A stretch of 60,852 bases of DNA from an uncultured Oscillibacter sp. (GTDB lineage Bacteria > Bacillota > Clostridia > Oscillospirales > Oscillospiraceae): NCBI GenBank assembly GCA_945868085.1, contig CAMBKF010000007.1:1-60852 (forward strand). Direction: 5' to 3'. Below are positions 25,853 to 49,988 of the stretch, piece after piece. Position 1 is the first letter of the stretch. The number at the start of each line of letters is the position of its first letter. The notes beneath the pieces are model-generated. The model had not been told where the DNA came from. It saw only the letters and a program-made list of their open reading frames with translations, and did not search any database. Position numbers and translations under genes: made by a program.

Positions 25853-26632
25853 CGTCCCTCGGCCACGGCCAGCGCCTCTGCAGCTCCCTCTCCCACGGAC
25901 CTGCCCAACATCACCGTCAAGAAGGGCGATGTGGTGGTTTCCGCAAATGTGTCCTCCTGGGCGCCCAAGATCTTCATGCCGCTCAACCAGAGCATCACTT
26001 TGACGGCGGAGATGGACAAAACCAGCTTCCACTGGATGGGCAAGGACTATCCCTTTGAGCTGACGGTGGATACCGACTATTCCGGTGCCAGCGCCAGCAT
26101 TGAAAAGCAGGATGACGGCAGCTACAAGATCTCCAAGTATTGGTATGGCAGCGAAGCCGGCAAGGTGGCTTACATCAAGTTTGCCGTGAAGGGCAGCACC
26201 AGTGCCAACCGGTACGTTGCCGTGCAGTTTACCAAGGAGACAAACCTGACCCAGGCAGCGGACGGCTACTTCCTGGTCCATAATGCCGCGGAACTGAAGG
26301 AATTTGCTGACCTGGTGAATAACACCGTCTGCACCGATAAGATCGGCGGCCAGCCGGAGAAGACCTTCAATCTTCGCCTCATGGCCGACATCGATATGAC
26401 CTCCATCAACGACACCTATATCCCCATCGGCTCCGCCATCAACGGAAAGTTCGGTAGCTACGCCAGCAGCAGGTATTATTCCTGGTGCGGCGACTTTGAC
26501 GGAAACCATCACAAGATCTATAACATTGATTATACCGCCCAAAGCCGCAGCGATGTAACGCTGTTTTGGAACAGCGGTGTTATCTTCACTACTGCCGGCA
26601 GCTGCCACGATCTCACGGTTGAGGGCAAAGTC
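25853..26632 (+). pseudogene. Surface-protein fragment lacking its N-terminus
   Basis: Directly after the small gene's stop, the same frame reads an extracellular-type sequence: an Ala/Ser/Thr/Pro linker, ITVKKGDVVVSANVSSWAPK, and a FLVHNAAELKEFADLVNN...GDFDGNHHKIYNIDY block typical of GLUG-type beta-helix surface proteins. There is no signal peptide or credible start. At about 26630 the homology jumps to another frame. It is the middle of a gene whose 5' end is missing. Confidence 0.65.
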
Positions 26633-27548
26633 CCACGATTATGTCACCGGCGGCATTCAGTACGACTGGCATCTCAACACCGAAACCGGCGCATACGATG
26701 CCTGCACCGCTTCCGTGTCCTACACCGAGTGCGGCAGTCCCCTGACCCAGGCTCTCACCGTCAAGCGCGAAGTAGCCCGGACCGACTGCACCCAGGAGCG
26801 CACCGTCACCTACACCGCCACCGGCACCATCAACGGCGTGGCCGCCAGCGATACCATGACGGATATTCTCCCCGCCGGCACCCACGAAGTGGATCCCACC
26901 CAGTGGACCAGCGACGAGAACACCCACTGGCACGTCTGCGCCAACTGCGATGTCCGCGTGGACGAAGCCGCCCACACCGGCGGCAGCGCAACCACCACCG
27001 AGCGTGCCCGGTGCGAGATCTGCGGCCAGGAGTATGGTGAACTGCTGCCCCGCACCTACACCGTGAAGTTTGAGGCAAACGGCGGCGAAGGCACCATGGA
27101 CGACCAGATCTTCACCTACGATGTGGCCCAGGCCCTCACCGCCAATGCCTTCACCAAGACCGACCGCACCTTCGCCTGCTGGAAGGACGCTAACGGCAAC
27201 ACCTACACCGACGGCCAGACCCTGCTGAACCTCCTCACCGAGGGCACCATCACCCTGACCGCTATGTGGACGGTCAATACCCCCGCCCTGAAGGCAAGCT
27301 ACATGATCTCCACCGGCAAACCTTACATCATGTGGAACGCCGTGAGCGGGGCCGACAAGTACGAGGTGTACCGCAGCGGCAACAGCTACGGCACCTATGA
27401 GTGCATCGGCACCGCTACGGCCACCAACTACACCGACAGCACAGCCAATGCCGGCTACACCTATTACTACAAGGTCAAGGCCGTCAGCAAGGTAAACAGC
27501 ACGGCCAATTCCGCGTTCAGCACCGTGGTGAGCATCACGGCTAAGTAA
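26630..27548 (+). pseudogene. C-terminal surface-protein fragment with InlB-like and FN3 domains
   Basis: In a frame different from the preceding fragment, the sequence reads SHDYVTGGIQYDWHLN and continues through a Cys-pair module (HVCANCDVRVDEAA...CEICGQEYGE). A Listeria-Bacteroides (InlB B-type) repeat follows (YTVKFEANGGEGTMDDQIFT...TLTAMWT), then one fibronectin-III-like domain closely similar to those at 12343-13150. Earlier in-frame ATGs exist only in the region that belongs to the other fragment's frame. This is the tail of a large surface protein, now cut from its head. Confidence 0.65.
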
Positions 27549-27599: not shown

Positions 27600-28553
27600 T
27601 TATTTCTCCGTCATGTCATAGAGCCGGGCTTTGCCGTCCTGAAAGCGCGCGTAAGCGGTCAGCGCGTAATAGGCCCGTTCGGTGGCCATGCCGTTGACCT
27701 CCACCAGCTCATCGGAATGATAAAACCCGTCCTCCAGGGCAAAATCACACAGCGCGTCCACCACATTCCGCCCGTTTTTCGTAAAACGCGGATCCTTCTG
27801 CGGGGCGATGCCCAGGGCCGTCAGTGCCACGATCACCTGGGCGCAGGACTCGCTGTTCTTGCTGCCCCAGCTCTCATATCCGCCATCGTCCAGCTGCAGG
27901 TCGGACAGGCATTGCAGAGCCGATTCCTCCGCCTCGCTCACATCCGTGCGCTGGGTGTAGGGTGCCAGGGCCGTCAGTGCCATGCCGGTCATGTCCGGGT
28001 CGGACACATCTCCGGCAAAGCTCCATCCGCCGTCGTCCTTGCGCTCTCGCAAAATCAGGTCCACCAGCGCCTCCCGGCTCGTCTGCTCCTCACCGGGCTG
28101 CGCCGTGGGGATCTCATAGCCGCCGCAGTCAAAGGCGATCAGCGCCCAGATGGGGCCATTGATGCCCTGAAATGCAACGAACTGCATATCCGTCAGTCCC
28201 TCCAGCAGATTCACGCCGCCGAAATTCGTTACATCGCCGCCGGCGGCGGTCACACCCAGGATGATGCGGGAGTTTTCCGTGGACTTGGCGCGGTCGAGCC
28301 GGGCCGTCCCGATGGTGCGGACATAGTCCTCCACCCTTTGCAGATAGCTCTGCGCGGCGCTGTCCTTGAGCAGCCCCGAGCGGCTCAGCCCGATGATCGC
28401 CCATTCGCCGCCCACGGATCCCACACCATAGTTCTCCTGCGCCGCAAGAGCCTGTCCGGTGCGGTCATAGGCCTCCTGCCACGGCTGCTGCGGACTGCAG
28501 GCGCACAGCAGGAGCAGCAGCGCCAAAAGTCCGGGAAAAATTCGTTTTTTCAT
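27600..28553 (-). CDS. Alpha/alpha-toroid (terpene cyclase/prenyltransferase-fold) lipoprotein, possible cobalamin-binding half
   Basis: The 317-residue protein starts at 28553 with a lipoprotein signal peptide (MKKRIFPGLLALLLLLCAC). The mature part has repeated alpha-alpha hairpins with the QL/DGGW-type turn: ERKDDGGWSFAGDVSDPDMT, LQLDDGGYESWG and SEAEESALQCLSDL. This is the toroid fold shared by prenyltransferases, terpene cyclases and the large domain of animal intrinsic factor. It lacks the DDxD-type active site of cyclases. It is the last gene of an operon that also encodes a DUF4430 protein and appears controlled by a cobalamin riboswitch, hence the binding proposal, which is inference. 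It could instead bind another ligand. Confidence 0.7.
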   Translation of the reverse strand: MKKRIFPGLLALLLLLCACSPQQPWQEAYDRTGQALAAQENYGVGSVGGEWAIIGLSRSGLLKDSAAQSYLQRVEDYVRTIGTARLDRAKSTENSRIILGVTAAGGDVTNFGGVNLLEGLTDMQFVAFQGINGPIWALIAFDCGGYEIPTAQPGEEQTSREALVDLILRERKDDGGWSFAGDVSDPDMTGMALTALAPYTQRTDVSEAEESALQCLSDLQLDDGGYESWGSKNSESCAQVIVALTALGIAPQKDPRFTKNGRNVVDALCDFALEDGFYHSDELVEVNGMATERAYYALTAYARFQDGKARLYDMTEK

Positions 28554-28561
28554 GGTTCCTC

Positions 28562-30829
28562 CTACAAAAACAGAACATATTTCAGACGGATCCGCCGCAG
28601 AAAATTGGCCTTCCCCCACGTCCTGTTCCAGATTTCATCCTTCAGGGTGAGCAGCGCCTGCCGCTGCGGCTCGTCCATAGCGTGGGTGCTGAAGCGCGCC
28701 TCCTGCCGGATGGCCGCGGCAGCGCGGTAGCGCTCCCGGAGATCCTCGTCCACAAAGTCGGCATAGTCCTCCGGGGCGCAGTTTTTCGCCTTCAGGCCCT
28801 GGGCACGCAGGACGTCCATGGTGTAGTCATAAATAGCACAGATGGCGGCAGAGAGGTCATCCGACAGGAATCCCGCCTTGCGTTTGGCCGTCTTTTTTCT
28901 CTCCCAAATGAGCCACAGCACAAACAGCGCCAGCAGCGCCGCCGCCGCCAAAATCGCCAGCACCAGCAAAATCTGCAGCCGGTGTCTGAGCCAGAAATTC
29001 AGCAGCGTAGGGTCCTCGGTGTCGTCGCCTTGCGGCTGATCGTCGGTATTATCCACGACTCGCTCCTGTGGCTGCTGGCCGATAAGGCCGGAAATATCCT
29101 GGTATTTCTCTGCCTGCTCCATGGCGGAGAAATACGGCGGTGTCACCTCAAAGGGCAGCCAACCAACGCCATCCTGGTAATATTCCACCCAAGCGTGGGC
29201 CGCCGCACCGGTGAGTGAGAGCATCTCCCCGGCGGATAGTCCCTTGGCATCCTCTTTGGTGACCAGGAAACCCTCCACATACCGCGCCGGGATCCCGTAG
29301 TAACGGAACATCATGGCCGCTGCCGTGGCGTAGTGGATGTCATATCCCTTCTGGGTCCCGTCCAGGAAATTCAGCACAAAGTCGATCCCATCCCCCACCG
29401 GCGCCAAGTCCGTCTCCTCGTAGGTCATGTAGGTTGAGAGATAGAACAGGATGTTCTGCTTCGCGTTCTGGTAGTCAAAATGCGTCTCGCCCTCGTCCAC
29501 CATGTAATCCCCCAGCTTGTCCGCAAGATAGCTCTGGATGTCCGAGGGAAGGGCGGTATAGTTCTTATAGGCAAAGGCGTTGTAGGCCGCCTCATCGCGC
29601 AAAAACTGCGTCTCATCCGACGCCTGGGCAAGGGCGGTGTTGATCCTCTGATACTGCTTCACCAGCCCCACGGCGGCAGACAGCGTATAGTTCCGCTGTC
29701 CCCGGAGTCCCGGGGCCCGGAGCCCACAGTCGCCCACAGCGGACGGCTCCAACCCGGCGCTGCCGGGCAGCAGCTCATAGGGTGCGTAGAGATACTTTCG
29801 GGAGAGCCCGACATTTTCGACGGTGATCGCATTTTCCGTCTCCAGCAGCTCCGGCCGCCCGGCCGCAGCCGCCCCGGCCTGCTGCGCCTGGGCATAGAAT
29901 CCGTCCTGGTGCAGCCAGTAAAAGTCGTCCGAGGCGGGATAGAGGGTCTCGGCGTCCAGGTTGCTCCAGCGATTGTTTTCATAAGTCTCGCCTGTAAAGC
30001 CCCGCAGGTAATAGGACGCAGGCGTCTGCATGGTGACCTGCAGCACCGTTTCCTGGGTGGTGCGCCGCGGTCCCACTTCCCGCAGGTCTCCGTCCGGGAG
30101 TCCCACGTCGGCGTTATTTCCGTAGCGGAGGGTCTGCACCTGCTGCCGCGTCCACTGCACAGCGCTGTCCAGGAAGGCGGGCTTTGCACTCTGCCAGCCG
30201 TCCAGCACCAGCGCCAGCACCAAAACCATGGCGGCCACCCGCAGCCAGGCGCCCGCGCCATCGCTTCCGCCGAAAAACAGCAGATACGCCAGCAGCTCGG
30301 TCAGTGCCGCCGCCAGCAGCCATCCCGCCGTCAGATGCGGCGCGAAAACCAGGCACAGCGCCGCCAGCAGCGCCGTCAGGCACCAGAAGCCCGCCGGGCT
30401 GCGCCGCCGGGCCGGTCCGGCGCACCAAAGGCCTAGCAGGGCCGCCAGAATGCACAGCAGCAGTGCCGCCCCATGTTCGTCCGCAACGGCGAACAGCTCG
30501 GCGTTTCCCGTCCGCAGATGCTTCCATGCGTCCAGCACGCCATTGGCCAGGGCCGCCAGCCCGCTGCGGAATGCTCTGTGGCCGATCACCGCCGCAGCGG
30601 CGCATGCCCCCAGCCAAACGGCCGGCACAGGCCACGGACGTCCGCGCCAAAAGGCTGCGCTGCCCGCCGCCAAAACGGCGATCAGCAGGGGAAGCAGGAG
30701 CTTTTCACCGGGGAGAAAGGCCTTCGCCGTCAACCATAGCAGCGCCCCAGCCAGCAGCGCCGAGACCAGGCAGGCCCGGATGCGTGAAAGGAAATCGTTA
30801 TAGTGCAAGATAAACGTCCTCCTCTCCAT
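28562..30829 (-). CDS. Transglutaminase-fold membrane protein (TgpA-like), catalytic Cys replaced
   Basis: The 755-residue protein has about six N-terminal transmembrane helices (to about residue 210), an extracellular transglutaminase-like domain (about 400-580) and a C-terminal helix (about 633-656) followed by a charged cytoplasmic tail. The domain keeps HYATAAAMMFRYYGIPARYV and the His of AHAWVEYY and GWLPFEVTPPY. However, the usual catalytic Cys of the GYCxHYA motif reads GYDIHYA, so cysteine-type catalysis is unlikely. The family normally sits beside MoxR and DUF58, as here. It overlaps the DUF58 stop by 32 bases. GGAGGAACGG precedes the ATG. Confidence 0.8.
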   Translation of the reverse strand: MERRTFILHYNDFLSRIRACLVSALLAGALLWLTAKAFLPGEKLLLPLLIAVLAAGSAAFWRGRPWPVPAVWLGACAAAAVIGHRAFRSGLAALANGVLDAWKHLRTGNAELFAVADEHGAALLLCILAALLGLWCAGPARRRSPAGFWCLTALLAALCLVFAPHLTAGWLLAAALTELLAYLLFFGGSDGAGAWLRVAAMVLVLALVLDGWQSAKPAFLDSAVQWTRQQVQTLRYGNNADVGLPDGDLREVGPRRTTQETVLQVTMQTPASYYLRGFTGETYENNRWSNLDAETLYPASDDFYWLHQDGFYAQAQQAGAAAAGRPELLETENAITVENVGLSRKYLYAPYELLPGSAGLEPSAVGDCGLRAPGLRGQRNYTLSAAVGLVKQYQRINTALAQASDETQFLRDEAAYNAFAYKNYTALPSDIQSYLADKLGDYMVDEGETHFDYQNAKQNILFYLSTYMTYEETDLAPVGDGIDFVLNFLDGTQKGYDIHYATAAAMMFRYYGIPARYVEGFLVTKEDAKGLSAGEMLSLTGAAAHAWVEYYQDGVGWLPFEVTPPYFSAMEQAEKYQDISGLIGQQPQERVVDNTDDQPQGDDTEDPTLLNFWLRHRLQILLVLAILAAAALLALFVLWLIWERKKTAKRKAGFLSDDLSAAICAIYDYTMDVLRAQGLKAKNCAPEDYADFVDEDLRERYRAAAAIRQEARFSTHAMDEPQRQALLTLKDEIWNRTWGKANFLRRIRLKYVLFL

Positions 30830-31907
30830 CCGTTCCTCCGGCCCCGGCGTGCAGCACGGTCACCTGGCCGCCGTCCGCCACCGGCAGCTCTTCCTGTCCG
30901 TCCCGCAGCGTGAACAGCACAACGTGTGCATAATCCGGTACGCCGCGGGTCTCCAGCCAGTGCTGCGCCGCCGTTTTTTCGTCCGGTGCGATCTGCGCGG
31001 CCAGCAGCTCGGCCAGGGCCTGGGTCAGCGTGTCATCGCTGTCGGCCTCCACCGCGGCTATGCACCCCTGCGTCCGGTCGAACCACGCGATGCGGTGCGC
31101 AAAGCCCGCAGAGCACAGCGCCGCCGATACCGACGCAGTCAGCTCGGCCAGCGCCTCGCAGTCGTCCGGCGCACAGGGCGCCGGGACGCTGTTGTCCATA
31201 AGCAGCAAAATAGAGTGGTTCACCGGCAGGCCCAGCTGCCGCACGATCACATCGCCGGTTTTTTCCGTCAGCTTCCAGTGGATGCTGCGCACCCGGTCCC
31301 CCGGGACGTATTCACGCAGGGCGAAGGTCTCGCTGGGATCGTCCCCCGGCCGGTGCATGGAGTATTCATCGCTGTCCAGCTCCACCGTCGCCCGGTCGGT
31401 AAAGGTCAGATGCACCGGATGCAGCTCCGGCAGCACCAGGCAGAAGGCCCGCTCATCACATGAGATCTTTCTGCCGTACAGGCCGAACAGGTCGTAGACC
31501 CGCACCTCCGGCAGGGACAGCTCCCGCTTGCCGCAGCGTTCCGCGGAAAATTCCACCGGGATGCTGCGCTTTTGCTTCCCCGCCACGGAAAAGCGAATGG
31601 GGCGCCGTTCCACCTCGCCCGTCAGCAGATTGCGGCATTCCAGGCGCAGGCAGACCGCCGCGCAGGTGAGGTATGACCCGTTCTCCACGGTGAGCTGCGC
31701 CTGCACAGGCTCGCCCTTCTGCCCGGAAAGCTGTACCCCCAGCGCGGCGCGCAGGTGCTTGGCCGCCAGGGCCGTCAGCAAAAGCTCTGCCCCCGCCGCG
31801 GCAATGCTCCCGGCCAGGATGCAGCCCGGCATGGCGCTTTTCCCCAGCGCCCATATCGCCAGCCACGCCAAAAGCCACGATCCGTAAAGGATCCGATATA
31901 TGACCAT
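30798..31907 (-). CDS. DUF58 domain protein
   Basis: The 369-residue protein has two N-terminal transmembrane helices, a beta-rich middle, and the DUF58 signature REYVPGDRVRSIHWKLTEKT (about 199-218) followed by a von Willebrand A-like segment (HSILLLMDNSVPAP). DUF58 proteins commonly act with MoxR ATPases in envelope assembly or stress, and that partner lies three bases upstream. The start follows the MoxR stop directly. It is membrane-anchored with the signature domain probably cytoplasmic. Confidence 0.85.
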   Translation of the reverse strand: MVIYRILYGSWLLAWLAIWALGKSAMPGCILAGSIAAAGAELLLTALAAKHLRAALGVQLSGQKGEPVQAQLTVENGSYLTCAAVCLRLECRNLLTGEVERRPIRFSVAGKQKRSIPVEFSAERCGKRELSLPEVRVYDLFGLYGRKISCDERAFCLVLPELHPVHLTFTDRATVELDSDEYSMHRPGDDPSETFALREYVPGDRVRSIHWKLTEKTGDVIVRQLGLPVNHSILLLMDNSVPAPCAPDDCEALAELTASVSAALCSAGFAHRIAWFDRTQGCIAAVEADSDDTLTQALAELLAAQIAPDEKTAAQHWLETRGVPDYAHVVLFTLRDGQEELPVADGGQVTVLHAGAGGTDGEEDVYLAL

Positions 31908-31910
31908 GGC

Positions 31911-32843
31911 TCAGATGTGGTCCGGGCGGCGCACCTGGCCCAAGAGGTCGGTGAGTATATCCGCGGCGGTGGTGTCGGCGATCTTCGCCTTGGGGGCAAG
32001 GAACAGGCGGTGGGCGCAGACGTCAATGAACACGCTCTGCACGTCCTCCGGGAGCACATAGTCCCGCCCATCCATAAACGCGCAGCTCTTGGCCATGCGG
32101 CATACGGCCAGCGCGCCACGGGGGCTGACCCCCAGCAGCACCAGCGGATGCGTGCGCGTGGCCTCGGTCAGCCGCGTTACATATTCCAGCAGGCTGTCAT
32201 CCATGTGAACGGCCCGGGCCTGCCGCTGCATCTCCAGCAGTGCCTCGGCCGAGGATACCTCCCGCACCTGGTCCAGGGGGTCATCCGTCTGGCGGTCCCG
32301 GAGGATGTTGACCTGGCTCTCAAAGTCCGGGTAGCCCATCTCCAGCCGGACCATAAAGCGGTCCAGCTGTGCCTGGGGCAGCAGCTGCGTGCCTGCCGAG
32401 CCCACCGGGTTCTGCGTGGCAATAACGGCAAAGGGAGCCGGCAGCGGGCGGGTCACGCCGTCCACCGTCACCTGCCGCTCCTCCATGGCCTCCAGCAGCG
32501 CGGCCTGGGTCTTGCTGGAGGTGCGGTTGATCTCGTCAGCCAGCAGCAGGTTCGTCATCACCGCGCCAGGCTGATAGACGAAGGTGCCGCTTTCCTTGCT
32601 GTAAATGGAGAAACCCACAATGTCCGATGGCAGCACATCGGGGGTAAACTGAATGCGCCCGTATTTCAGCCCCAGCGCCCGGTGGAAGGCCAGGGCGGCC
32701 GTAGTTTTGCCGGTGCCGGGCACATCGTCCAGCAGCACATGGCCGCGGGAGATCAGGGTCATGAGGATCTTTTTCAGCACATCGTCCTTGCCGACGATGA
32801 CCTTGTGTACCTCTGTGAGGATTTGATTCACATTGCTGTTCAT
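31911..32843 (-). CDS. MoxR-family AAA+ ATPase
   Basis: The 310-residue protein starts at 32843 after AAAGGAGAGACCC; a longer form from 32861 is less likely. It carries Walker A (DDVPGTGKTT), Walker B (LLLADEINRTSSKTQAALLE) and sensor I (VIATQNPVG), then the C-terminal lid domain. MoxR ATPases act as chaperones that activate or assemble partner envelope proteins, usually together with DUF58 and von Willebrand A proteins. Here the likely clients are the neighbouring DUF58 protein and the surface proteins of this operon. Confidence 0.9.
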   Translation of the reverse strand: MNSNVNQILTEVHKVIVGKDDVLKKILMTLISRGHVLLDDVPGTGKTTAALAFHRALGLKYGRIQFTPDVLPSDIVGFSIYSKESGTFVYQPGAVMTNLLLADEINRTSSKTQAALLEAMEERQVTVDGVTRPLPAPFAVIATQNPVGSAGTQLLPQAQLDRFMVRLEMGYPDFESQVNILRDRQTDDPLDQVREVSSAEALLEMQRQARAVHMDDSLLEYVTRLTEATRTHPLVLLGVSPRGALAVCRMAKSCAFMDGRDYVLPEDVQSVFIDVCAHRLFLAPKAKIADTTAADILTDLLGQVRRPDHI

Positions 32844-32854
32844 GGGTCTCTCCT

Positions 32855-35119
32855 TTACCATTCTTTGTAGTAGTTTCCGTTGCTGTAGCCGTAGCCGCTT
32901 CCCACCGCCGTGGAGAAACCGCCGATGTCCTTGCCCAGGGCCAGGGTAAAGCGTAAGCGGATGACTGCGCCGTCCTGGGGCTTGCAGGCGGACATGCCAT
33001 AGCCGGGATAGCGGTCGTTGTAGGAGTACATCCAGCCCGACCAGCGGTAGTAATCAAATTCGCCCAGGGAATCCATGTCTCCGGGCTTGGGGTCATTGCC
33101 CGCGCCGTAGGCGTCCATGCCGTCGTCAATGATGAGCTGCTTCAGCTCCGGATCGATGTGATAGCCGTCATTGATGCCGGGCTTTTTAATGGCGGCCAGA
33201 TAGTTGCCGCTGGCGGAGTATGTGTATCCGTTTTCCTCCAGAAGCTTGCACACGATGGACAGTACATCCGTGCCTCCTGGCACCGTGACCTGTGTCGGCG
33301 GGACCAGATAGCCCAGCCCCACGGTGGTGGCCTCGATGCTGACGGTCAGGGTCACATCTCCCTTTTCGTAGTAGACCGTCCAGCTCCGGGTGGCGCTGTA
33401 GCCGTCCTCGTCCGTGGCGGTCACGGTGATGACGTTTTTGCCCTCATTGGTCAGATAGGTGTTGTAGCCGAAGCTGGCCCCTGTCTGGCTGCACGGGGAC
33501 TCAATACGCTGGCCGTTGATGTATACCTCGTAGTTGTTGAGATAGAGCTGCTCGTTGTTCCAGCTCCGTGCGTCAATGATGGTGATAACGTCCGGGCTTT
33601 TCAGCACCAGTCCGTCCTCCAGCCCCATGACCGTGCTCCCCACCTCAATGGTGGCGGATATGCTGGGATATTTGTCCGGCGGCGTCGTGCCGGGGTTGCG
33701 GTGGAAGCGCACCGTCCACTTGTAGCTCTGCCTTTCGCCGTCGGCGTCCACGTAGCGCAGCACAAGGTACAGCGGCTTGCGCGTGTCCACCTGCACGGTG
33801 TACCAGCCGTCGGCGGATGCCCTCACGATCTCATCGTCGTAGCGCACCTGGGTGATCTGCTCCTTGCCGGTCTCCTGGTTCAGATAGAAACGGAAGCGGA
33901 ACTCCTCCGAGTCCAGATACAGCGGCAGTTCCTCGCTGATATGCTGCGGCTGCTTGGTGTCGTTGTCGATAACGGTGCCGGAAAAGCTGGTGGTGATCTT
34001 GAAGCCGTCCTCCCGGTAGTCGATGCGGTAGGTCTCCGAGGCGCTGCCCAGCCGGTCGTCGACGGTGACCTCAATGAGGTTCGTGCCGAATTGCAGGACC
34101 GCGCTGAAGGTGTCGGAGGAGGAGCTGACGGTCTTCCCGTTCAGCCGCACCGACGCCCGCAGGCGTTTGCCGTCACGCAGGCCGTAGGCCACGAATCGCA
34201 GCCCGCTCTCCGCCGTATTGTGTACCTCGCTCAGCGGGGCGCTGTCCTGCGCCCGATAGGCCACGATCACCGTCTCCCCAGCAGGACTGTAGTTGAGGGT
34301 GTAGCTGTGGGATGCGGTGATGTTGTCCGTGCCGTCAAAATAGGCCGCCCGCACAACGATGGTATTCGTGCCCTGTGCCAGGCGGATCATCACGCTGCTG
34401 GTAGCGGCGCGGTAAGAGAACTCCTCGCCATTGACCAGCACAGTCAGTCCGCGCACCTGCAGCAGCGGCTTCAGGTGCCGGATGGTAAAGGTATAGTCGC
34501 TGTAGTCGACGGTGTCGCCGTCTATGATGCTGGTTTCAAAATATCGATCCGGGTCGCCCACCTCGGCGTTGCCCGGCTCCTGAGCCGGTTCCCGGGCGGG
34601 TGTCTGCCCGCCGGATCCGCCGCCGTTGCCGGAGATGTCCAGCAGATCCCCGATATTCGTGCGGCCGGACGTATCACTGGGATCGTCGCTGGGCACATCG
34701 CCGGGTATGTCGGGGGTCGGCGTAGGGTCATCCGGCTGATCCGGCGATGGGGTCGGATCGTCCGGGGTCTCGTTGGGCTTTTCCGGGTCCGCCGGGTCGT
34801 CCGGCTGGTCCTGGGGCTCATCGGGCTCGTCGGGTTTATCGGGTTCGTCGGGCGTGTCCGGTTCGTCGGGTGTATCCGGGTCATCCGGCTCGTCCGGCTC
34901 CTGGGGTTCGGTCTGCTGGTTGTCGTTTGCGTTGTCCAGCTGTGTCATACTGTCGGCATCGTATAGGATCTCGGCGTCTGACAGCAGCATCCGCGAGGCC
35001 GGATCCTGCTCCTGGCGCTGCGGCTCCCCCTTCTGCAGATTCAGGAAGGATAGCAGCAGCACCAGGCATACAAGTCCCGTCAGCCCCGCCTTCAGCAGCG
35101 GCCCCAATGGTTTTTTCAC
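32855..35119 (-). CDS. Large secreted/anchored protein with a C-terminal DUF4430 domain
   Basis: The 754-residue protein starts best at GTG (35119), six bases after GAGGTGAG. It has an N-terminal membrane segment (GLVCLVLLLSFLNL), an Asp/Pro/Glu repeat spacer (DEPDTPDEP units, about 60-150), several immunoglobulin-like beta domains (about 190-620) and a C-terminal DUF4430 domain (from about 625: LTVSIEATTVGLGYLVPP...SGWMYSYNDRYPGYGMSACK...VIRLRFTLALG). DUF4430 is the fold of the beta domain that closes over cobalamin in intrinsic factor and transcobalamin, although the family is not proven to bind B12 in bacteria. In the same operon a separate lipoprotein supplies the alpha/alpha barrel. Confidence 0.8.
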   Translation of the reverse strand: MKKPLGPLLKAGLTGLVCLVLLLSFLNLQKGEPQRQEQDPASRMLLSDAEILYDADSMTQLDNANDNQQTEPQEPDEPDDPDTPDEPDTPDEPDKPDEPDEPQDQPDDPADPEKPNETPDDPTPSPDQPDDPTPTPDIPGDVPSDDPSDTSGRTNIGDLLDISGNGGGSGGQTPAREPAQEPGNAEVGDPDRYFETSIIDGDTVDYSDYTFTIRHLKPLLQVRGLTVLVNGEEFSYRAATSSVMIRLAQGTNTIVVRAAYFDGTDNITASHSYTLNYSPAGETVIVAYRAQDSAPLSEVHNTAESGLRFVAYGLRDGKRLRASVRLNGKTVSSSSDTFSAVLQFGTNLIEVTVDDRLGSASETYRIDYREDGFKITTSFSGTVIDNDTKQPQHISEELPLYLDSEEFRFRFYLNQETGKEQITQVRYDDEIVRASADGWYTVQVDTRKPLYLVLRYVDADGERQSYKWTVRFHRNPGTTPPDKYPSISATIEVGSTVMGLEDGLVLKSPDVITIIDARSWNNEQLYLNNYEVYINGQRIESPCSQTGASFGYNTYLTNEGKNVITVTATDEDGYSATRSWTVYYEKGDVTLTVSIEATTVGLGYLVPPTQVTVPGGTDVLSIVCKLLEENGYTYSASGNYLAAIKKPGINDGYHIDPELKQLIIDDGMDAYGAGNDPKPGDMDSLGEFDYYRWSGWMYSYNDRYPGYGMSACKPQDGAVIRLRFTLALGKDIGGFSTAVGSGYGYSNGNYYKEW

Positions 35120-35195
35120 AGATCTCACCTCAGTTCGGAACATCACGGGAAGGAGAAAGGCAATTTTGCCCTTCTCCTCCCGGTGTTATTGTGGT

Positions 35196-38100
35196 TTATT
35201 TCTCTTTTCCGCGCTTTGCAGCCAGGAACCACTTGATCAGGCCGAAGATCACCGCTGCCGCGGCCAGGATCCCGGCGATCATCCAGACGGTGGTCCAGTC
35301 AAAGCCCTTGCTTTCGTCCCCGGGCTTCTGGTCGTCAAGCTGATCGGACGGTTTCTGATCCGTCTGCTGATCCAGCAGCGCCCGATACGCCGTGACGGCT
35401 GCCTCCAGTGTCGCCCGATCCTCCGCGGGCAGGAGGGCCTTTTGCGCCTCGGTCAGGGCATTGAAGGCATCCAGGGCCGCCTCAATAGCGTCCTTGCTCT
35501 CCAGCGTGACCTTGCCGATGCTGCGGATCCGATCGGAAACGGCCTTGACGGCCTCGCTGTCCGTCTGCGTCCCGGCGGGCTCCGCCGGCTCAGCAGGGAC
35601 GTTGGGCTCGGCGGGTACCGCCGGCTCCGTGGGCTCAGTCGGTTCCGTGGGCTGGGTCGGCTCCGTGGGCTGGGCCGGCTCTGTAGGCTTAGTCGGCTCC
35701 GTGGGCTCAGCGGGTTCGGGCTTGTCCGGCTGCGGCGGCGTAGGCTCCTCGATCTCGGCGGTGCGGTAGTATTCCTGTGCCGCCTTCAGCGCCTCCAACC
35801 GCGTGACATATTGCTTCTGTGCGTCGGTCAGCGCGTCATACTGCTCCTGCACCCGGCGCAGGGTCTCGCCCAGCGCTGCCAGGGATTCCTTCGTGGGCTT
35901 CTGGGGCAGCGTCCCGATCTGCTCGATGAGCAGGTCCACCACCTGTGCGCTGTAGCGGTCGAGGACCTTCTGTGCCTCCTCTGCCGAGGTACACTGTCCC
36001 AGCTCCGTCTCGCACTGTGCGGCCAGCGCGCCGATGCGCTCCGCCAGCGCAGGATAGGCCGCCTGCGCCTTCGCGCTCTGCTCCCGGAGCGTTTCCGCCG
36101 CCTTGCTGTGATCCGCCAGGAGTTTTTCGGCGGCCTCCAGCGTCTCAAGTGCCTTTTCGGGCACCAGTGCCTTCTGCTCGTCAGTGAGGCCGTTGTAGGC
36201 GGTGCGGGCGGTCTTCACCGCGCCCTCGTCCACCTCTGCCATGGTCGTCTCGCCGGGGACAAAGTGCATCTCATCCACCAGCGCACCCGCCACCTTGGCG
36301 CAGTAGCGGTTCAGTGCCAGCACCGCGCCGTCGCGGTCGGTACAGGTACGCAGCTCCGCCGTGGTCTCGGCGCTCAGGGTCTGCAGGGTCTCCGCTATCT
36401 GCGGATACTTCCCGGCGTCCTCCTGGGCCCAACCCGTCAGGGTCTCGATGGCCTTATTGTATACGGCCAGCAGCGTTTCGGCCTCCGCAAGGGATGCCTC
36501 GCTGCTCTCGTCCAGCAGCGCCTTCTGCGCCTGGGTCAGACCGTTGAGCGCCTGGCGGGTGCGCGTCAGCTTTTCGCCGGCGTCCGCCAGCTCGCCCATG
36601 GTAGTCGTCCCGGCGGTAAAGCCCACATCCTTCACCAGCAGCCGGACAGCGTCTGCGCAGTACTGGTCCAGAACGGGCGCCAGCTCCTCCTGCTTGGTGC
36701 ATTCACCCAGCGCAGCCTGCGCATCCGCGGCCAGTGCCTCCAGCGCAGAAGCAAGATCGGGATAGCTGCTCTTATCGTCCCCGTTCCACTGGGCCAGCAG
36801 TGCCAGGTTCTTGTTATAGCTCTCCGCCAGGGCCTGGATGTCCGCCAGCTTGGCGTAATTCTGCACCAGGGTCTGCTGCGCCTGAGTCAGCGCAGCGTAG
36901 GCACTCTCGATGTCCTGTGCCTTGTCCGCCAGCTCCTTCATGGGCGCACCCTGGGCGTCTGCCACCAGCAGGTCCACCACCTGCGCAGCAAAGCTGTCGA
37001 TCACAGCCTCCGCCCGCGCGGCATTCGCGCTGTGGGCGATGGTAACGCGGTCCGCCTCATAGCGCTCCGTCAGGCCCGCCTCGATGGCGGGATAGGCGGT
37101 CTTTGCCGCCTCATAGGCCGCCGTCAGCTTCTCCAGGGCGGCGGCGCAGGCCTCACCCAGCAGCTTGCCGGGATCCATGGCCGCCAGTGCGGTATGATAG
37201 GCCTTCACCAGCTCATCCGCGTTGTCCGTGGTGCGCACGGTCTCAGCCGTCCGGGTGAGCATGGTCTCCAGATCCGCGCGCTGCTCGTCGGAGATCAGCG
37301 GCCGGATCTTCGTCTGATAGTAGTTGTTGAGATAGTTCACCACGGCCTCGCGGCTATCCGGCAGCAGGAGCTGCCAGGGGAAGATGGGATACCCGCCGTT
37401 GAGGCCCGCGATGCTCTCGGTCAGTCCGTCAAAGATGTCCGCCGTCAGCGTATCCACGGCATAGACCCGGTCGCCCTGGCTGCTTTTCCAGCCCATGGCC
37501 GAGCGTGTCGTCCCGGAAAGCACATAGAGGTTATCGCGGTACTGCCCCTCAATGGGGAAGCCCACCAGCGTGCCGATGTGGTCGATCTTCGTGCCGGTGT
37601 CCAGTGTGCCTGCGTTGTAGCAGTTCTTCACCGTCAGCAGCTCATTGCCGGTGGAGGCGGTCTTGCCGTATTTCCCGCTTTCGCCGCCGAGGATACCGCC
37701 GGCGATGATGCCGCCGGAGATGGTTCCGGTGTTATAGCAGCCGTCGATGGTGATGCGGCCGCTCTGCACAATGCCGGCAATGCCGCCGATACCGCCGGTA
37801 GGCCATTCGCCGGCACCGATGACGAAATTCACGTCGTTGGAGATGTGCCCGGTGTTCAGGCACTGGTGCAGCACGGTCTCGTCGCTGTTATAGGCGTAAA
37901 TGGTGCCGACAATGCCGCCCACGCCGGATGCCTTGTTGGCCGTCACTTCGCCGGAGTTGACGCAGCGCTCGAGCTTCCCGTTTTTCAGGTAGCCCACCAG
38001 GCCGCCCAGACCGCCGCCGTTAAAGCCCAGATAGGAGCTGTAATTATAGAGGCAGGTGATGCTGCCCTCAAAGCGGCAGTCGGTAAAGGTACCGGAGCTC

Positions 38101-41100
38101 GCCAGTCCCGCAAAGCCGCCAAGACTGGAGCCGCGCCCGCTGAGGCCGTTAAAGGTCACCCGGATCTGCACGTCGGACACGCAGTTTTCAAAGGCAGCCT
38201 GGGTGCTGTCCGCGATCACGCCGCCGACAATGATATCCGACTTCACATCCTGCAGATCGATCTCGCCCCGGACGGTCAGGTTTTGCAGCTTGGTGCCGCC
38301 GAAGCCCCGGCCGAACAGGCCTACATACCCGGTATCGTCCCGGCTGATATACAAGCCGGACACGGTGTGTCCCTGACCGTCGAAGGTACCCCGGTAGGCG
38401 CCATTGCTGTAGCCGACCTTGCGGCCGATGGGCGTCCACTCACAATAGCCCAGGTCGATGTCCGCGGTCAGAACGGCATACAGGCTGTCGGATCTGCCGC
38501 CGTTTACCTTTTCGTCCAACCACGCCAGCTCCGCGCCGGTGCCGATGCGATAGGGTTCATCCTCTGTGCCCTGGCCCTCCGGCTGCGATTTTGTCTCGCC
38601 GTCCCACACATTGGTGTTGCCGGCAGAGGCCAGGTATCCGGCCAGCTTCTGGCGGGCAGCGGTGTAGAGGGAGTCCATCTCCTCCTCCGCTCCCTGCCGC
38701 AGCTTATCCAACTGGGCATAGTCCGTGATCTTATCCAGCGCGGGTGTGGCCGCGGTGTGCAGCGCCGCCGCGCTCTCATCCAGCAGGGTCTGAATGGCCG
38801 TCTGCCACTTTTCGGCCAGGGCAGTCAGGTCGCCCGCCTGCTCCGTCAGGGCGTCGCCGTACTTCTTCTCCAGCGCAGCCAGCTGGTCCAGGATCTCCTG
38901 GCGGGCCAGGGCCAGCGCATCCTGGGCCGCCTGGTCCAGGTCGGGCGTGCTCCCACCCTCGGTAAAGCCCTTGGCCATCTCCGCCAGGGCCTTGCGCGCC
39001 TCGGCGTAGAGGCTCTCCACCTCTTCCATCGCGGCGGCTTCGCCAAGCTTCAGCTTCCAGCTCTCATAGGCGCGCAGAAGCGTCGCCGCATCCTCCTGGG
39101 AGTAGTTTTTCCCGTAGATAAATTCGTTGTAAAGGGCGTTCGCCGCCTTCACGGGATAGGTGGCGACCTCCTTGAGCTTGCCGTCCTTGTTCTCGCTGCC
39201 CAGATAGGTCTGGCGGACGTCCGTAACGTCGGCCAGCTTCTTGGCCGCCTCCAATGCATCGTCAGCCTCCGCCAGGATGGCGTCAATGGCCTTCTGATTC
39301 TCGGCGTCGTAGAGGTTGCCGTCCACAAAGGCCTGCATCTCCTGACGCAGCGCGATCTTGGCGGCCTCCAGCTCCGTGGGCACGGCGGCCAGAGTGGTCT
39401 CCGCCTCCCGCAGCGCGTTTTCGATGTCCTCCGCGGTGGTGCACAGCTCGACCTTGCGGACACACTGCATAACGGTGTCGTTATAGAGCCCGCTCTGGTT
39501 GCCGTAGACCTTATACTCCTCGTCACGGCTGTAGCCTATGTTGATGAGCTTCCCCAGCAGCGTCCGGGTGGCGGTGAGCTTTTCCCACATGCCGCCCCCG
39601 GCGTTGACCTCGGGAGTGATCTGATCCGTGCGGATGGTGTCGGTGCCGTCGGCACCGGTAGCCGCGGCGTAGCCCCAGAGGGTGTTTTCGCTGCTGCTCT
39701 GCGCGTGCTTCACGTCGCCTGCGCGCCAGTTGCCGATGATGCCGCCTGTAGACCCGGCAGTGGTGGAATAGTCATAGGCAGCGTTATACTTATTGCGTTT
39801 TGCCTCGCTGTAGATGGTCCCCGCGTTGTAGCCGTACTGCAGGCTCAGAGAGCAGCCCTCGGCGGCATAACCGATAATACCGCCCGTACCGCGGGCATCG
39901 GAGTTGCCATCAGAGCCGTACACGTCGCCGTAGTTAGTCACATAGCACATGTCCAGCTTGCCCTTTTCGTTCACGTTGCCGACAACGCCGCCCACGCGCA
40001 GGCCGCCCCAGACTTCGGCATAGTTGACGCTCTCGCGCACCTTGGCCGTGCCATAGACCAGGCCCACGATGCCGCCCGCGGCGGATGCCTTGCCGCCGAG
40101 GTAACTGACCTCATAGCCGTGCAGCCGCATGTGATTCTCGCAGTATCGGATCAGCCCGCCGTCTGCGGGGTCGCTGACACCTGCGCTGCCCACGATGCCG
40201 CCGATGGAGTTGACCATGTTGCCGCTGTAGTTGCTGTCGTTGGTAGCCAGATAGAGCCCGTAGCTGCGGCAGTTTTCAACGGAGCCGCCCACCAGGTCAC
40301 CCACAATGCCGCCCACGCTGCCAATGCCCTTCCATGTGCCCAGGAAGCCGGACACCTCGCAGTTGTAGATCTCGCCCTCGCTGACGCCCGCGATCATGCC
40401 GGAGCCGTTGCTCTGCACTGCGCGGATGCGCCCGGCCACCCAGACATCCCGGACGATGCCATAGCTCGGGTCATTGCCGCTCTTGCGGCCCACATAGCCG
40501 AACAGGCCCTGTACACTCTGCCCCTCGGCCGTACTCCACAGGCCGTGGATGATATGTCCCTTGCCGTCAAAGGTACCCAGGTACCCATTATATTTATCGG
40601 TAGCGATGGCCGTCCATTCCTGGCGATTCAGGTCAATGTCCGCCGTCAGCACGGCACAGGCCGTGATGCTGCCGCCGTTGACCTTGTCCGCAAACCACGC
40701 CAGCTCCGCGCCGGTGCCGATGCGATAGGGATCGGCCTTCGTGCCGCTGCCCGCAGGCTGCGTCTTTGTGGTGCCGTCCCACTTGTCGGCCACGCCGGAG
40801 TCAAAGGTGGGCACCTCATACCCTGCGCGCACGGCCAGCAGCTTTTCGTTCCATTCGGTCTTGGCCGCCTCCAGCTGCTTTTCCGTGCGGGCAGCCTCCA
40901 TGGCCTCCAGGCCGGCATCCAGCGTTTCCTTGAGCGTCCCGGCCATGGTCTCCAGCTTCTCGGCAGCCGCCTTCACACCCGTCAGCTCATGCCACACCGC
41001 CGAGAGCATCCCCCGGTCGGTATCCAGGGCATAAAACTCCTTGCTGTAGGCAGTATAGTAGTCCCGCTGGGCGGTGAGCTTTGCGCCGTCAAAATCCTTC

Positions 41101-42629
41101 TGTCTCCGGATGGTCAGCACCGCCGCCATGTCCAGGACCGCCTCGTCAGCGGTCGCCGTCAGCTTGGCCGCCGCCTGCTGCTTTGCGCCGTCGGCGGTGA
41201 TGGCCTCCGGCTCCATGCTCTCCCAGCCCTCCGGCGCGGCATATTCAAGGCCCTTCAGCGTGTTCTTGGCGGTGTTGTAGTATGCCTCCAGCAGCGCCCA
41301 GTTGTCACTGCTGTAGCGGTAATAGTCGTTGGTGACGGGGTTGGTGTAGGTGCTGTCCTGGCGGTACTTGTAGGTGGTGTAACCCACATATTTAGTGCCG
41401 TCGATGGTCTTGCCGTCATCCAGCGCCTTCAGGGCCGCCGTTTTCTCGTCTTCAAAGGCCTTTTTGGCCGCAGCCAATGCCTTCTCCTGGGGCGTGTTCT
41501 GGGACGCAGGTTTCTCCAGCTCCCATGCCAGCACCGGCCAGCCGTCGCCCATCTCGTCAGGGGACGTGTAATATGTCTCGTCGCCGTTCAGGTATTCCAG
41601 CGCATAGTCAATCTTGCCGCTGTAGTCCCACGCCCGGTGGATCTGATCGCCGTCGCCGTACTCATAGGGATTCAGACTATACTCGCCCTCAATGGCCTCG
41701 GAGTACGTCATGTTGTGCGCCAGGTCATCACTGATGCTATCGGCGCTGCCGAAGAAATCGCCCGCCACATAGTCTGAGGAGATCGTCTCCGTGCGCTTTG
41801 CCCACTGGGGGTTCAGATTGTCGTTGTCCTCCGTGGAGGCGGAGGTGTAGCAGCCGATGATGTTGGGCGCAGCATAGCTCAGGCCCATCAGACCGCCGGC
41901 GTAGCCCTGGCCGTCCCCAGGCGCATAAATGGACGCGGAGTTATAGCAGTATTTCAGCGTGATTTCATAGTCCGCCCAGCCCACGATGCCGCCGTAGGCG
42001 TTCATATCGTCCTGGCAGGTGCCGGTGATCTTGCCGTGGTTGGCGCAGGCGATGATCTCGTTTCCATCGCCAAAAACATAGCCCGCAATGCCGCCCACAC
42101 CGGATGTGGTGTCACCCAAGCTGTACTCCACGCTGGAGCTGCAGTTCTCGATGGTGTTTTTCCGGTCCAGAAAGGCCGCAACGGAACCCATGGAAAGGTT
42201 CAGCCCCAGCCCCTCCTCGGACGTGACCTTGCCCTCCATGCGGACGTTCTTGATGGTTGCGTTCTTAATGGTGTTGAACAGGCCGATGGCGTTGTCGCTC
42301 TCCCAGTCGGCGCCGATGTTGATGTCCAGCTTCACGGAGTAGCCCCGGCCGTCAAAGGTGCCGCTGTAAGGCTTTCCCTGGGTGCGGCCGATGGAGATCC
42401 AGTCGTACCCGGTCAGGTCGATGTGGTTGGTCAGCACGCCCCAGATGCGTGTCTTGCCCTCGTCATTGACCAGCGCCGCAAAGGCCATCAGGTCCTCGGC
42501 GTCCGCGATCTCATAGGGGCTCGCCTCGGTGCCCTCGCCTGCCGGCGTTCCGCCGTCGGCCAGCGCCGTCACCGGCAGCATGCTGAGCATCAGCACCAGC
42601 GCCAGCAGCAGTGCAATTCCTCGTTTCAT
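35196..42629 (-). CDS. Giant surface protein with GLUG beta-helix regions, helical repeats and a membrane anchor
   Basis: The 2477-residue protein has a signal peptide (1-25, VTALADGG) and three blocks of GLUG-type beta-helix repeats (about 35-370, 640-1050 and 1400-1750; GIVGWADYEITLKYCYNSAS, GGFAGLASSGTFTDCRFEGS). Between and after them lie long alpha-helical FIVAR-like stretches full of Ala, Glu and Lys. A spacer of PTEPTQPTEP repeats (about 2300-2345) precedes a final transmembrane helix (WMIAGILAAAAVIFGLIKWF) with the charged tail RGKEK. It should span the wall and display the beta-helices. GAGGTGAAAACGA precedes the ATG. It is the first gene after the riboswitch and terminator, so it is the most directly controlled. 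Confidence 0.8.
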   Translation of the reverse strand: MKRGIALLLALVLMLSMLPVTALADGGTPAGEGTEASPYEIADAEDLMAFAALVNDEGKTRIWGVLTNHIDLTGYDWISIGRTQGKPYSGTFDGRGYSVKLDINIGADWESDNAIGLFNTIKNATIKNVRMEGKVTSEEGLGLNLSMGSVAAFLDRKNTIENCSSSVEYSLGDTTSGVGGIAGYVFGDGNEIIACANHGKITGTCQDDMNAYGGIVGWADYEITLKYCYNSASIYAPGDGQGYAGGLMGLSYAAPNIIGCYTSASTEDNDNLNPQWAKRTETISSDYVAGDFFGSADSISDDLAHNMTYSEAIEGEYSLNPYEYGDGDQIHRAWDYSGKIDYALEYLNGDETYYTSPDEMGDGWPVLAWELEKPASQNTPQEKALAAAKKAFEDEKTAALKALDDGKTIDGTKYVGYTTYKYRQDSTYTNPVTNDYYRYSSDNWALLEAYYNTAKNTLKGLEYAAPEGWESMEPEAITADGAKQQAAAKLTATADEAVLDMAAVLTIRRQKDFDGAKLTAQRDYYTAYSKEFYALDTDRGMLSAVWHELTGVKAAAEKLETMAGTLKETLDAGLEAMEAARTEKQLEAAKTEWNEKLLAVRAGYEVPTFDSGVADKWDGTTKTQPAGSGTKADPYRIGTGAELAWFADKVNGGSITACAVLTADIDLNRQEWTAIATDKYNGYLGTFDGKGHIIHGLWSTAEGQSVQGLFGYVGRKSGNDPSYGIVRDVWVAGRIRAVQSNGSGMIAGVSEGEIYNCEVSGFLGTWKGIGSVGGIVGDLVGGSVENCRSYGLYLATNDSNYSGNMVNSIGGIVGSAGVSDPADGGLIRYCENHMRLHGYEVSYLGGKASAAGGIVGLVYGTAKVRESVNYAEVWGGLRVGGVVGNVNEKGKLDMCYVTNYGDVYGSDGNSDARGTGGIIGYAAEGCSLSLQYGYNAGTIYSEAKRNKYNAAYDYSTTAGSTGGIIGNWRAGDVKHAQSSSENTLWGYAAATGADGTDTIRTDQITPEVNAGGGMWEKLTATRTLLGKLINIGYSRDEEYKVYGNQSGLYNDTVMQCVRKVELCTTAEDIENALREAETTLAAVPTELEAAKIALRQEMQAFVDGNLYDAENQKAIDAILAEADDALEAAKKLADVTDVRQTYLGSENKDGKLKEVATYPVKAANALYNEFIYGKNYSQEDAATLLRAYESWKLKLGEAAAMEEVESLYAEARKALAEMAKGFTEGGSTPDLDQAAQDALALARQEILDQLAALEKKYGDALTEQAGDLTALAEKWQTAIQTLLDESAAALHTAATPALDKITDYAQLDKLRQGAEEEMDSLYTAARQKLAGYLASAGNTNVWDGETKSQPEGQGTEDEPYRIGTGAELAWLDEKVNGGRSDSLYAVLTADIDLGYCEWTPIGRKVGYSNGAYRGTFDGQGHTVSGLYISRDDTGYVGLFGRGFGGTKLQNLTVRGEIDLQDVKSDIIVGGVIADSTQAAFENCVSDVQIRVTFNGLSGRGSSLGGFAGLASSGTFTDCRFEGSITCLYNYSSYLGFNGGGLGGLVGYLKNGKLERCVNSGEVTANKASGVGGIVGTIYAYNSDETVLHQCLNTGHISNDVNFVIGAGEWPTGGIGGIAGIVQSGRITIDGCYNTGTISGGIIAGGILGGESGKYGKTASTGNELLTVKNCYNAGTLDTGTKIDHIGTLVGFPIEGQYRDNLYVLSGTTRSAMGWKSSQGDRVYAVDTLTADIFDGLTESIAGLNGGYPIFPWQLLLPDSREAVVNYLNNYYQTKIRPLISDEQRADLETMLTRTAETVRTTDNADELVKAYHTALAAMDPGKLLGEACAAALEKLTAAYEAAKTAYPAIEAGLTERYEADRVTIAHSANAARAEAVIDSFAAQVVDLLVADAQGAPMKELADKAQDIESAYAALTQAQQTLVQNYAKLADIQALAESYNKNLALLAQWNGDDKSSYPDLASALEALAADAQAALGECTKQEELAPVLDQYCADAVRLLVKDVGFTAGTTTMGELADAGEKLTRTRQALNGLTQAQKALLDESSEASLAEAETLLAVYNKAIETLTGWAQEDAGKYPQIAETLQTLSAETTAELRTCTDRDGAVLALNRYCAKVAGALVDEMHFVPGETTMAEVDEGAVKTARTAYNGLTDEQKALVPEKALETLEAAEKLLADHSKAAETLREQSAKAQAAYPALAERIGALAAQCETELGQCTSAEEAQKVLDRYSAQVVDLLIEQIGTLPQKPTKESLAALGETLRRVQEQYDALTDAQKQYVTRLEALKAAQEYYRTAEIEEPTPPQPDKPEPAEPTEPTKPTEPAQPTEPTQPTEPTEPTEPAVPAEPNVPAEPAEPAGTQTDSEAVKAVSDRIRSIGKVTLESKDAIEAALDAFNALTEAQKALLPAEDRATLEAAVTAYRALLDQQTDQKPSDQLDDQKPGDESKGFDWTTVWMIAGILAAAAVIFGLIKWFLAAKRGKEK

Positions 42630-42704
42630 TCGTTTTCACCTCATGCAAAGTAATAGGTATATGAAAAGGGACATTCGTCCCGTAGACAGGAAACACGGCT
42701 CCCG

Positions 42705-42743
42705 ATAAAAAGAACTCCGCACGACGCCCAGCCGTGCGGAGTT
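42705..42743 (-). terminator. Riboswitch-linked intrinsic terminator
   Basis: On the minus strand AACTCCGCACG pairs with CGTGCGGAGTT over nine bases, followed by CTTTTTATC. It lies between the cobalamin aptamer and the start codon of the giant surface gene and is the probable expression platform. Confidence 0.85.
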
Positions 42744-42787
42744 GATCCGTTTTTGTAAAAACAGCTTCCCGGTAAGGGCAGGAACCG

Positions 42788-42904
42788 ACGCGCAGCCCGA
42801 CGTATCTGACTTATCCGGTTTTCCCGGCATCACAGTGACCCGCTCGCGAGGCATCTCACCTCATTCCGTCTCCGGCAAAAGCCGGAAGGCAGCGCGCTTA
42901 CAAT
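42788..42904 (-). promoter_or_regulatory. Cobalamin (B12) riboswitch aptamer
   Basis: Read on the minus strand, the leader contains the conserved cobalamin aptamer core: GGAATGAGGTGAGATGCCTC followed by GCGGGTCACTGTGA, a CCGGGAAAACCGG hairpin, and a B12-box-like AAGTCAGATACGTC (42812 down to 42799). A CCGGC/GCCGG hairpin precedes the core. Order and spacing match cobalamin riboswitches, and an intrinsic terminator follows, so B12 should switch the downstream operon off. The B12 box deviates at a few positions from the consensus I remember. A covariance-model search would settle it. Confidence 0.82.
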
Positions 42905-42922
42905 ATACAGTTGTTCAAAATG

Positions 42923-42951
42923 ATTATACCTGTTCCGTTTTAGAAATGCAA
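42923..42951 (-). promoter_or_regulatory. Promoter of the riboswitch operon
   Basis: On the minus strand TTGCAT (42951-42946) and TATAAT (42928-42923) are separated by 17 bases. Transcription would start near 42916, just upstream of the aptamer, giving a leader of about 290 bases. Confidence 0.8.
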
Positions 42952-44724: not shown

Positions 44725-44763
44725 AAAAAAAGATCCGCTCCCCGCAGGAGCGGATCTTTTTTT
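44725..44763. terminator. Bidirectional terminator
   Basis: GATCCGCTCC and GGAGCGGATC form a 10-bp stem around five bases, with seven A before and seven T after. It serves hcp and the converging PII-like gene. Confidence 0.9.
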
Positions 44764-49849: not shown

Positions 49850-49988
49850 AGTCCTCCCCATGAAGCCACAGAGCCGGCGCCCTTGCGGCACATGGATGAT
49901 CCCTCTTAATGCTGCTCGGTTCCCCGCCTGACATGATTCGTGGGTATCCATTGCGCAAGACCGGCTCCGCAGCTTCACACGGAGGACT
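49850..49988 (-). ncRNA. ffs: Signal recognition particle RNA (small SRP RNA)
   Basis: Read on the minus strand, this segment contains the conserved SRP domain IV apical motif: TGTCAGGCGGGGAACCGAGC and then AGCATTAAGAGGGATCATCC, with AGTCCTCC at the 5' end pairing with GGAGGACT at the 3' end. Length is about 139 bases. The location just upstream of dnaX is the usual one in Firmicutes. A promoter lies immediately before it. Confidence 0.88.

Follow-up and report, generated by a model that had tools for sequence, protein, structure and literature searches.

Gene content and architecture of the operon

The DNA analysed here (the window) is a 60,852-nt stretch of contig CAMBKF010000007.1 from an uncultured Oscillibacter sp., whose genome is available as a 1.96-Mb draft assembly (84.5% complete). 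We studied an operon of six minus-strand genes, the leader of which matches a compact, cobalamin-type riboswitch and the products of which are predicted to capture corrinoids (B12) at the cell surface. All six genes were present where an initial annotation of this DNA had placed them, with GLUG, MoxR, DUF58 and a transglutaminase core confirmed by Pfam, and they are tightly packed, overlapping by no more than 32 nt or separated by no more than 49 nt (Table 1). The first encodes a giant GLUG-repeat protein with a signal peptide and a C-terminal membrane anchor (judged by eye). In the second protein, Pfam DUF4430 scored 22.0 bits over the whole length (cut-off 23.8) and 26.0 bits on the domain alone. 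For the last gene, the ATG at 28553 gives a signal peptide and a lipobox (by eye) and was preferred over 28619; its product showed weak Prenyltrans and SQHop_cyclase_C matches in Pfam.

As the same annotation had pointed out, none of the six operon proteins has a Pfam match to a BtuFCD or ECF B12 transporter. The terminator it had noted ahead of the operon was likewise found. The promoter, which it had called consensus, held up in part: the −10 element is perfect, but the −35 element has 3 of 6 consensus letters (read from the sequence) and a consensus promoter scan reported no promoter at the operon leader.

Table 1. Features of the operon and its leader, in the order of transcription
Feature	Position	Strand	Details
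Promoter	42923-42951	minus	−35 TTGCAT 42951-42946, 17-nt spacer, −10 TATAAT 42928-42923
Compact cobalamin-type riboswitch aptamer	42773-42914	minus	R2 89.8 bits; RF00174 sub-threshold; covariation
Intrinsic terminator in leader	42713-42743	minus	13-bp stem, tail CTTTTTAT; CTTTTT after stem
Giant GLUG-repeat surface protein, 2477 aa	35196-42629	minus	Pfam Glug above cut-off
SLBB/DUF4430 surface protein, 763 aa	32855-35146	minus	SLBB domain at about residues 594-761
MoxR AAA ATPase	31911-32861	minus	AAA_3 2.9e-55; AAA_3/AAA_lid_2 above Pfam cut-off
DUF58 protein	30798-31907	minus	Pfam DUF58 above cut-off
Membrane protein with transglutaminase fold	28562-30829	minus	Transglut_core 2.9e-17, above cut-off
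Alpha/alpha-toroid lipoprotein	27600-28553	minus	Start shifted from 28619 to ATG at 28553

The leader RNA and its genomic contexts

At Rfam gathering scores, no match was found at the window leader. With permissive settings, the cobalamin family RF00174 aligned to 42781-42905 (minus strand) over its full model length, with the conserved core (GGAA, GGUG hairpin, CACUG, AGUCAG) in the correct order. The Rfam model therefore gave a mixed answer, since this match was significant against all 4227 Rfam families (E = 0.0038) but reached 20.3 bits, below the gathering cut-off of 31.5. A model of 16 other leaders (R1; 14 at or above the Rfam gathering score and two below it, at 28.7 bits and, for a leader on contig 26 of the same genome, 21.4 bits) returned the window leader as its best match (E = 0.01, followed by 1.4; these E-values are rough). 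With R1 and a motif scan, short window-like leaders were identified on contig 19 of the same genome and in genomes G125, G070, G219 and G199. A second model made of these five, R2, again with the window excluded, had its sole match in the 60.8 kb at the window leader (E = 2.6e-21), so that a chance match can be set aside and the aptamer-like leader of the initial annotation is upheld.

The RNA family and its pairing were computed directly. Across 48 distinct compact copies, in an alignment fitted to R2, the cobalamin core letters and their order are retained, 92.8% of the cells pair, and 16 of 25 pairs changed on both sides; covariation was 0.413, compared with 0.132 in shuffled and at most 0.100 in slid alignments. 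A free alignment of six compact leaders also gave two-sided changes, in 8 of 17 pairs. When RF00174 was run on 20 loci with compact copies, a single compact site exceeded the cut-off (34.5 bits), four more scored 31.2, 30.6, 25.3 and 19.6 bits, and in the other 15 loci the compact site drew no match, even with E-values of up to 1 allowed in a 60-kb search, which is why we consider this RNA to be largely missed by Rfam. Core letters, helix order and a leader terminator are shared with RF00174 (class I), whereas the window RNA, of about 142 nt, lacks the long peripheral part, and compact copies mostly fall below the Rfam cut-off. This sets the compact RNA apart from RF00174, although it could still belong to class IIa or IIb, named with class I in the accessible part of PMC11477304. 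Provided that its ligand follows its kinship, the leader would represent a compact type of cobalamin riboswitch that has been under-recorded.

Several candidates around the leader were discarded. A downstream loop–loop interaction (GGUGAG/CUUACC) forms six pairs, but 534 of 1000 shuffles reach six as well; direct alignment with the G125 leader was uninformative; and matches to uup, DGCR5, ClpQY_promoter and Pseudomon-groES were far below their cut-offs. The contig 26 leader (L001/G000, 13853-14079, minus strand) is of ordinary length and, despite its sub-threshold RF00174 score, appears to be a genuine cobalamin riboswitch; no clear gene follows it.

R2 detected copies in 7 of the 32 genomes searched within the genus and, across the family, in 64 of 200 genomes, representing 47 of 106 genera (own and training genomes counted). 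SLBB and/or toroid domains lie downstream in at least 14 of 48 compact sites, window included, as judged from at most the first four downstream reading frames and often from 1.5 kb of sequence. A CbiK cobalt chelatase starts the downstream genes at sites L210 and L217, and CbiQ with an ABC ATPase follows at L189 and L208. Over larger distances, at least 23 of 98 compact places are followed on their own strand by a listed toroid gene no more than 16 kb away (about 0.4 expected by a simple Poisson estimate, as for all such expectations below), and at least 19 are after subtraction of the window and three training copies. These 98 of 102 places omit those of G403, G407, G413 and G416 and include the window and four of the five R2 training copies. 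In a strict scan, 11 of the 47 compact sites, the one in the window among those scanned, have a perfect terminator hairpin after them (0.2 in total after letter shuffling). Given the CbiK, CbiQ-type transporter and SLBB/toroid contexts, cobalamin is the likely ligand, and by analogy with known switches the RNA would exert OFF control.

The proteins with CbiK domains at L217 (1022-2905) and L210 (5765-6823) seem to be exported: one carries S-layer homology domains, and the other resembles a lipoprotein (by eye). A NiCo riboswitch is also present in L176, which represents the same site as L210. In L218, L219 and L187, the compact RNA precedes a possible sensor and response-regulator set (regulators by eye), which in L218 and L219 includes an SLBB protein and could perhaps sense extracellular corrinoids. 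A 42-residue TP_methylase stretch behind the compact RNA of L193 shares its frame with an unrelated dehydrogenase and was not counted.

Protein folds and the cassette in relatives

Fold prediction connected two of the operon proteins to animal B12 carriers. The 14 best structural matches of the predicted SLBB domain are haptocorrin, intrinsic factor and transcobalamin, and the toroid lipoprotein has the predicted fold of the carriers' other half, which is also common to terpene cyclases. Both features of the transcobalamin family, the SLBB beta-grasp and the alpha/alpha toroid, are thus present, and this pair of folds, which the initial annotation had missed, is the best evidence for capture; in contrast to the animal carriers, they are spread over two bacterial proteins, one of them a lipoprotein, encoded by separate genes of a six-gene cluster rather than joined in one chain. 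The likeness of the SLBB domain to the carriers was seen by fold comparison alone: its sequence profile gave only DARPin/ankyrin and endoglucanase matches among PDB sequences, which we judged to be chance. Pfam DUF4430 is present in 11 of the 13 members of the SLBB alignment. The toroid profile matched terpene cyclases, prenyltransferases and thioester proteins, while transcobalamin was not found at E up to 1; in structure, the window toroid is closer to terpene cyclases than to the animal proteins. In the transglutaminase-fold protein, an aspartate occupies what we take to be the place of the catalytic cysteine in this family (GYC in locus L052). This cysteine is missing in 20 of 21 aligned sequences, and the protein is therefore probably catalytically dead.

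A search of genome contigs with the DUF4430 protein as query found no relative; the toroid alignment served as query of a second such search. The 20 transglutaminase loci stem from 16 genomes, of which G219 contributed three loci and G085 and G105 two each. All 20 have MoxR and DUF58, and 17 have SLBB and/or toroid genes, the SLBB gene of L036 being on the opposite strand. RF00174 reached its gathering score upstream of nine loci (L034, L036, L039, L040, L043, L045, L047, L049 and L050, of which L047 and L049 look like near-copies), in line with the expectation that the same genes should recur behind cobalamin riboswitches. The closest counterpart is L034 of Sporobacter termitidis DSM 10068, where a 72.1-bit cobalamin riboswitch precedes genes for SLBB, a GLUG-related giant (by BLAST), MoxR, DUF58, transglutaminase and toroid, that is, the gene set of the window with the first two genes swapped. 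In L044, R1 and R2 copies are located several kilobases upstream, and six loci (L033, L037, L038, L046, L048 and L051) are near contig ends.

Another common form among the fetched toroid loci consists of a riboswitch, a surface giant, toroid, SLBB, CbiQ-like and ABC genes. In 18 genomes selected for having toroid matches, 16 of the 34 listed toroid places had an RF00174 match no more than 15 kb upstream (0.37 expected). Of the best 80 toroid loci out of at least 570 (from named records), 76 contain SLBB and two contain MoxR and transglutaminase. R1 matched upstream on the same strand in 36 of the 80 (29 with at least 40 bits), all of which contain SLBB and at least two of which are R1 training copies; R2 gave three matches, all weak. 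Judging from these counts in relatives and toroid loci, riboswitch control of SLBB/toroid genes appears to be general, the compact RNA is largely confined to the family of the window, and the form with MoxR, DUF58 and a pseudo-transglutaminase is a minority variant.

A candidate corrinoid capture system

Based on this anatomy and homology, which support the surface apparatus for B12 scarcity suggested by the initial annotation, we propose, with a probability of roughly 0.72, that the operon is a corrinoid capture system under a compact cobalamin riboswitch, working as follows. When cobalamin is plentiful inside the cell, the aptamer would bind it and transcription would end at the leader terminator; when it is scarce, RNA polymerase would read through and the six proteins would be made. 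The SLBB protein and the toroid lipoprotein would form the separate halves of an extracellular clamp resembling intrinsic factor or transcobalamin. The corrinoid would be held between these halves, which would sit at or close to the giant GLUG protein serving as surface scaffold. Assembly or maturation of this complex might be assisted by MoxR, DUF58 and the membrane-bound pseudo-transglutaminase. From the clamp, the corrinoid would pass to a membrane transporter whose genes lie outside the operon, possibly in a cluster on contig 14 of the same genome, where an SLBB protein is found with an ABC ATPase and a CbiQ-lookalike (no Pfam match). Contig 19 has cobU and cobS directly before a 1893-aa SLBB+toroid giant with its own compact riboswitch, and contig 4 encodes an additional SLBB+toroid protein; no cobalamin-type leader was found at the SLBB genes of contigs 4 and 14. 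The genome also encodes one B12-binding-domain protein. With cobU and cobS present and CbiD not found in this 84.5% complete assembly, the host fits a corrinoid-salvaging cell.

A refinement of this proposal, which we regard as possible but rather unlikely, is that RNA and proteins serve another corrinoid (cobinamide or another cobamide) that is finished by CobU and CobS. The gene content of contig 19 and the lack of a detected CbiD agree with it, as does L120 of the same genus, where SLBB, toroid, MoxR and DUF58 genes adjoin cobT, cobU and cobS; however, the structural matches of the SLBB domain are carriers of complete cobalamin, and sequence alone does not discriminate between corrinoids.

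The operon could also encode a general surface structure, such as an adhesin or stalk, which is simply coupled to the B12 supply, with SLBB and toroid binding something else. Several loci weigh against corrinoid capture in this way. In L035 (1938-12421, minus strand), from the same genome as L034, a GLUG-related giant, MoxR, DUF58 and a Cys-less transglutaminase occur without SLBB or toroid behind a molybdenum-cofactor riboswitch (72.5 bits), and the cassette may therefore serve different cofactors. L052 likewise has MoxR, DUF58 and transglutaminase without SLBB or toroid, and no cobalamin leader was found there; nor was a leader detected by RF00174, R1 or R2 in L041 and L042, where SLBB genes are present. 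The SLBB superfamily is moreover thought to bind various ligands (PMC1796856, in the part available). Yet SLBB and toroid genes recur together behind cobalamin riboswitches, as in the 36 R1-preceded toroid loci, and these riboswitch-linked genes often adjoin CbiQ-like and ABC genes, making a general surface structure improbable. That the leader is a different RNA resembling a cobalamin sensor, as its sub-threshold Rfam score and the 15 compact loci without an RF00174 match might suggest, is highly improbable given core letters and helix order common to cobalamin riboswitches, the matches to both R1 and R2, and the CbiK, CbiQ and SLBB contexts of compact copies.

Neither this operon type nor the compact RNA was recognised in the literature searched, which covered few subscription papers. 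The initial annotation had called the arrangement undescribed. This stands for the operon type and the RNA and is limited to them, because Burroughs 2007 (PMC1796856), as far as its text was accessible, had already predicted bacterial SLBB/toroid proteins, often with CbiO/CbiQ, to be B12 scavengers. Those proteins share the two domains, secretion and the predicted scavenging role with the window. In place of transporter genes, however, the operon has a GLUG giant together with MoxR, DUF58 and a pseudo-transglutaminase, and the accessible text makes no mention of riboswitch control. BtuG of Bacteroides (PMC6143338, accessible part) resembles the prediction for the window in being a B12-capturing surface lipoprotein encoded in loci under B12-riboswitch control, but it is another protein, of a Gram-negative outer membrane, and works with BtuB. 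The available text on the PFNA cluster of Bifidobacterium (PMC8430577) contains the terms MoxR, DUF58 and transglutaminase and no occurrence of cobalamin. New to the literature searched are the compact RNA family (which may fall in class II), its link to these operons, the pairing of a split clamp with the MoxR/DUF58/pseudo-transglutaminase cassette, and a transglutaminase that has lost its catalytic cysteine. More tentatively, a previously unlisted compact riboswitch class might govern a B12-harvesting organelle on the surface of gut Bacillota, in which a split intrinsic factor sits on a GLUG stalk and is assembled by MoxR, DUF58 and the pseudo-transglutaminase.

In the gut, B12 is a contested vitamin. 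Bacteroides has BtuG for it, and surface capture by Gram-positive gut bacteria is hardly covered in the literature searched. A riboswitch largely missed by standard searches leaves B12-regulated genes in these bacteria unannotated. In addition, separate SLBB and toroid halves bear on the origin of animal intrinsic factor, and a cassette with a Cys-less transglutaminase raises a testable question about MoxR machines.

Elsewhere in the window, a Prismane/hybrid-cluster family protein is encoded divergently from the operon (43131-44702, plus strand). Two overlapping frames at 25931-27548 (plus strand), the second with a Listeria-Bacteroides repeat, look like one surface protein split by a frameshift. 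On the minus strand, we found a DUF1538 protein with a P-II-like partner (44762-46986) and a small signal recognition particle RNA (49868-49967).

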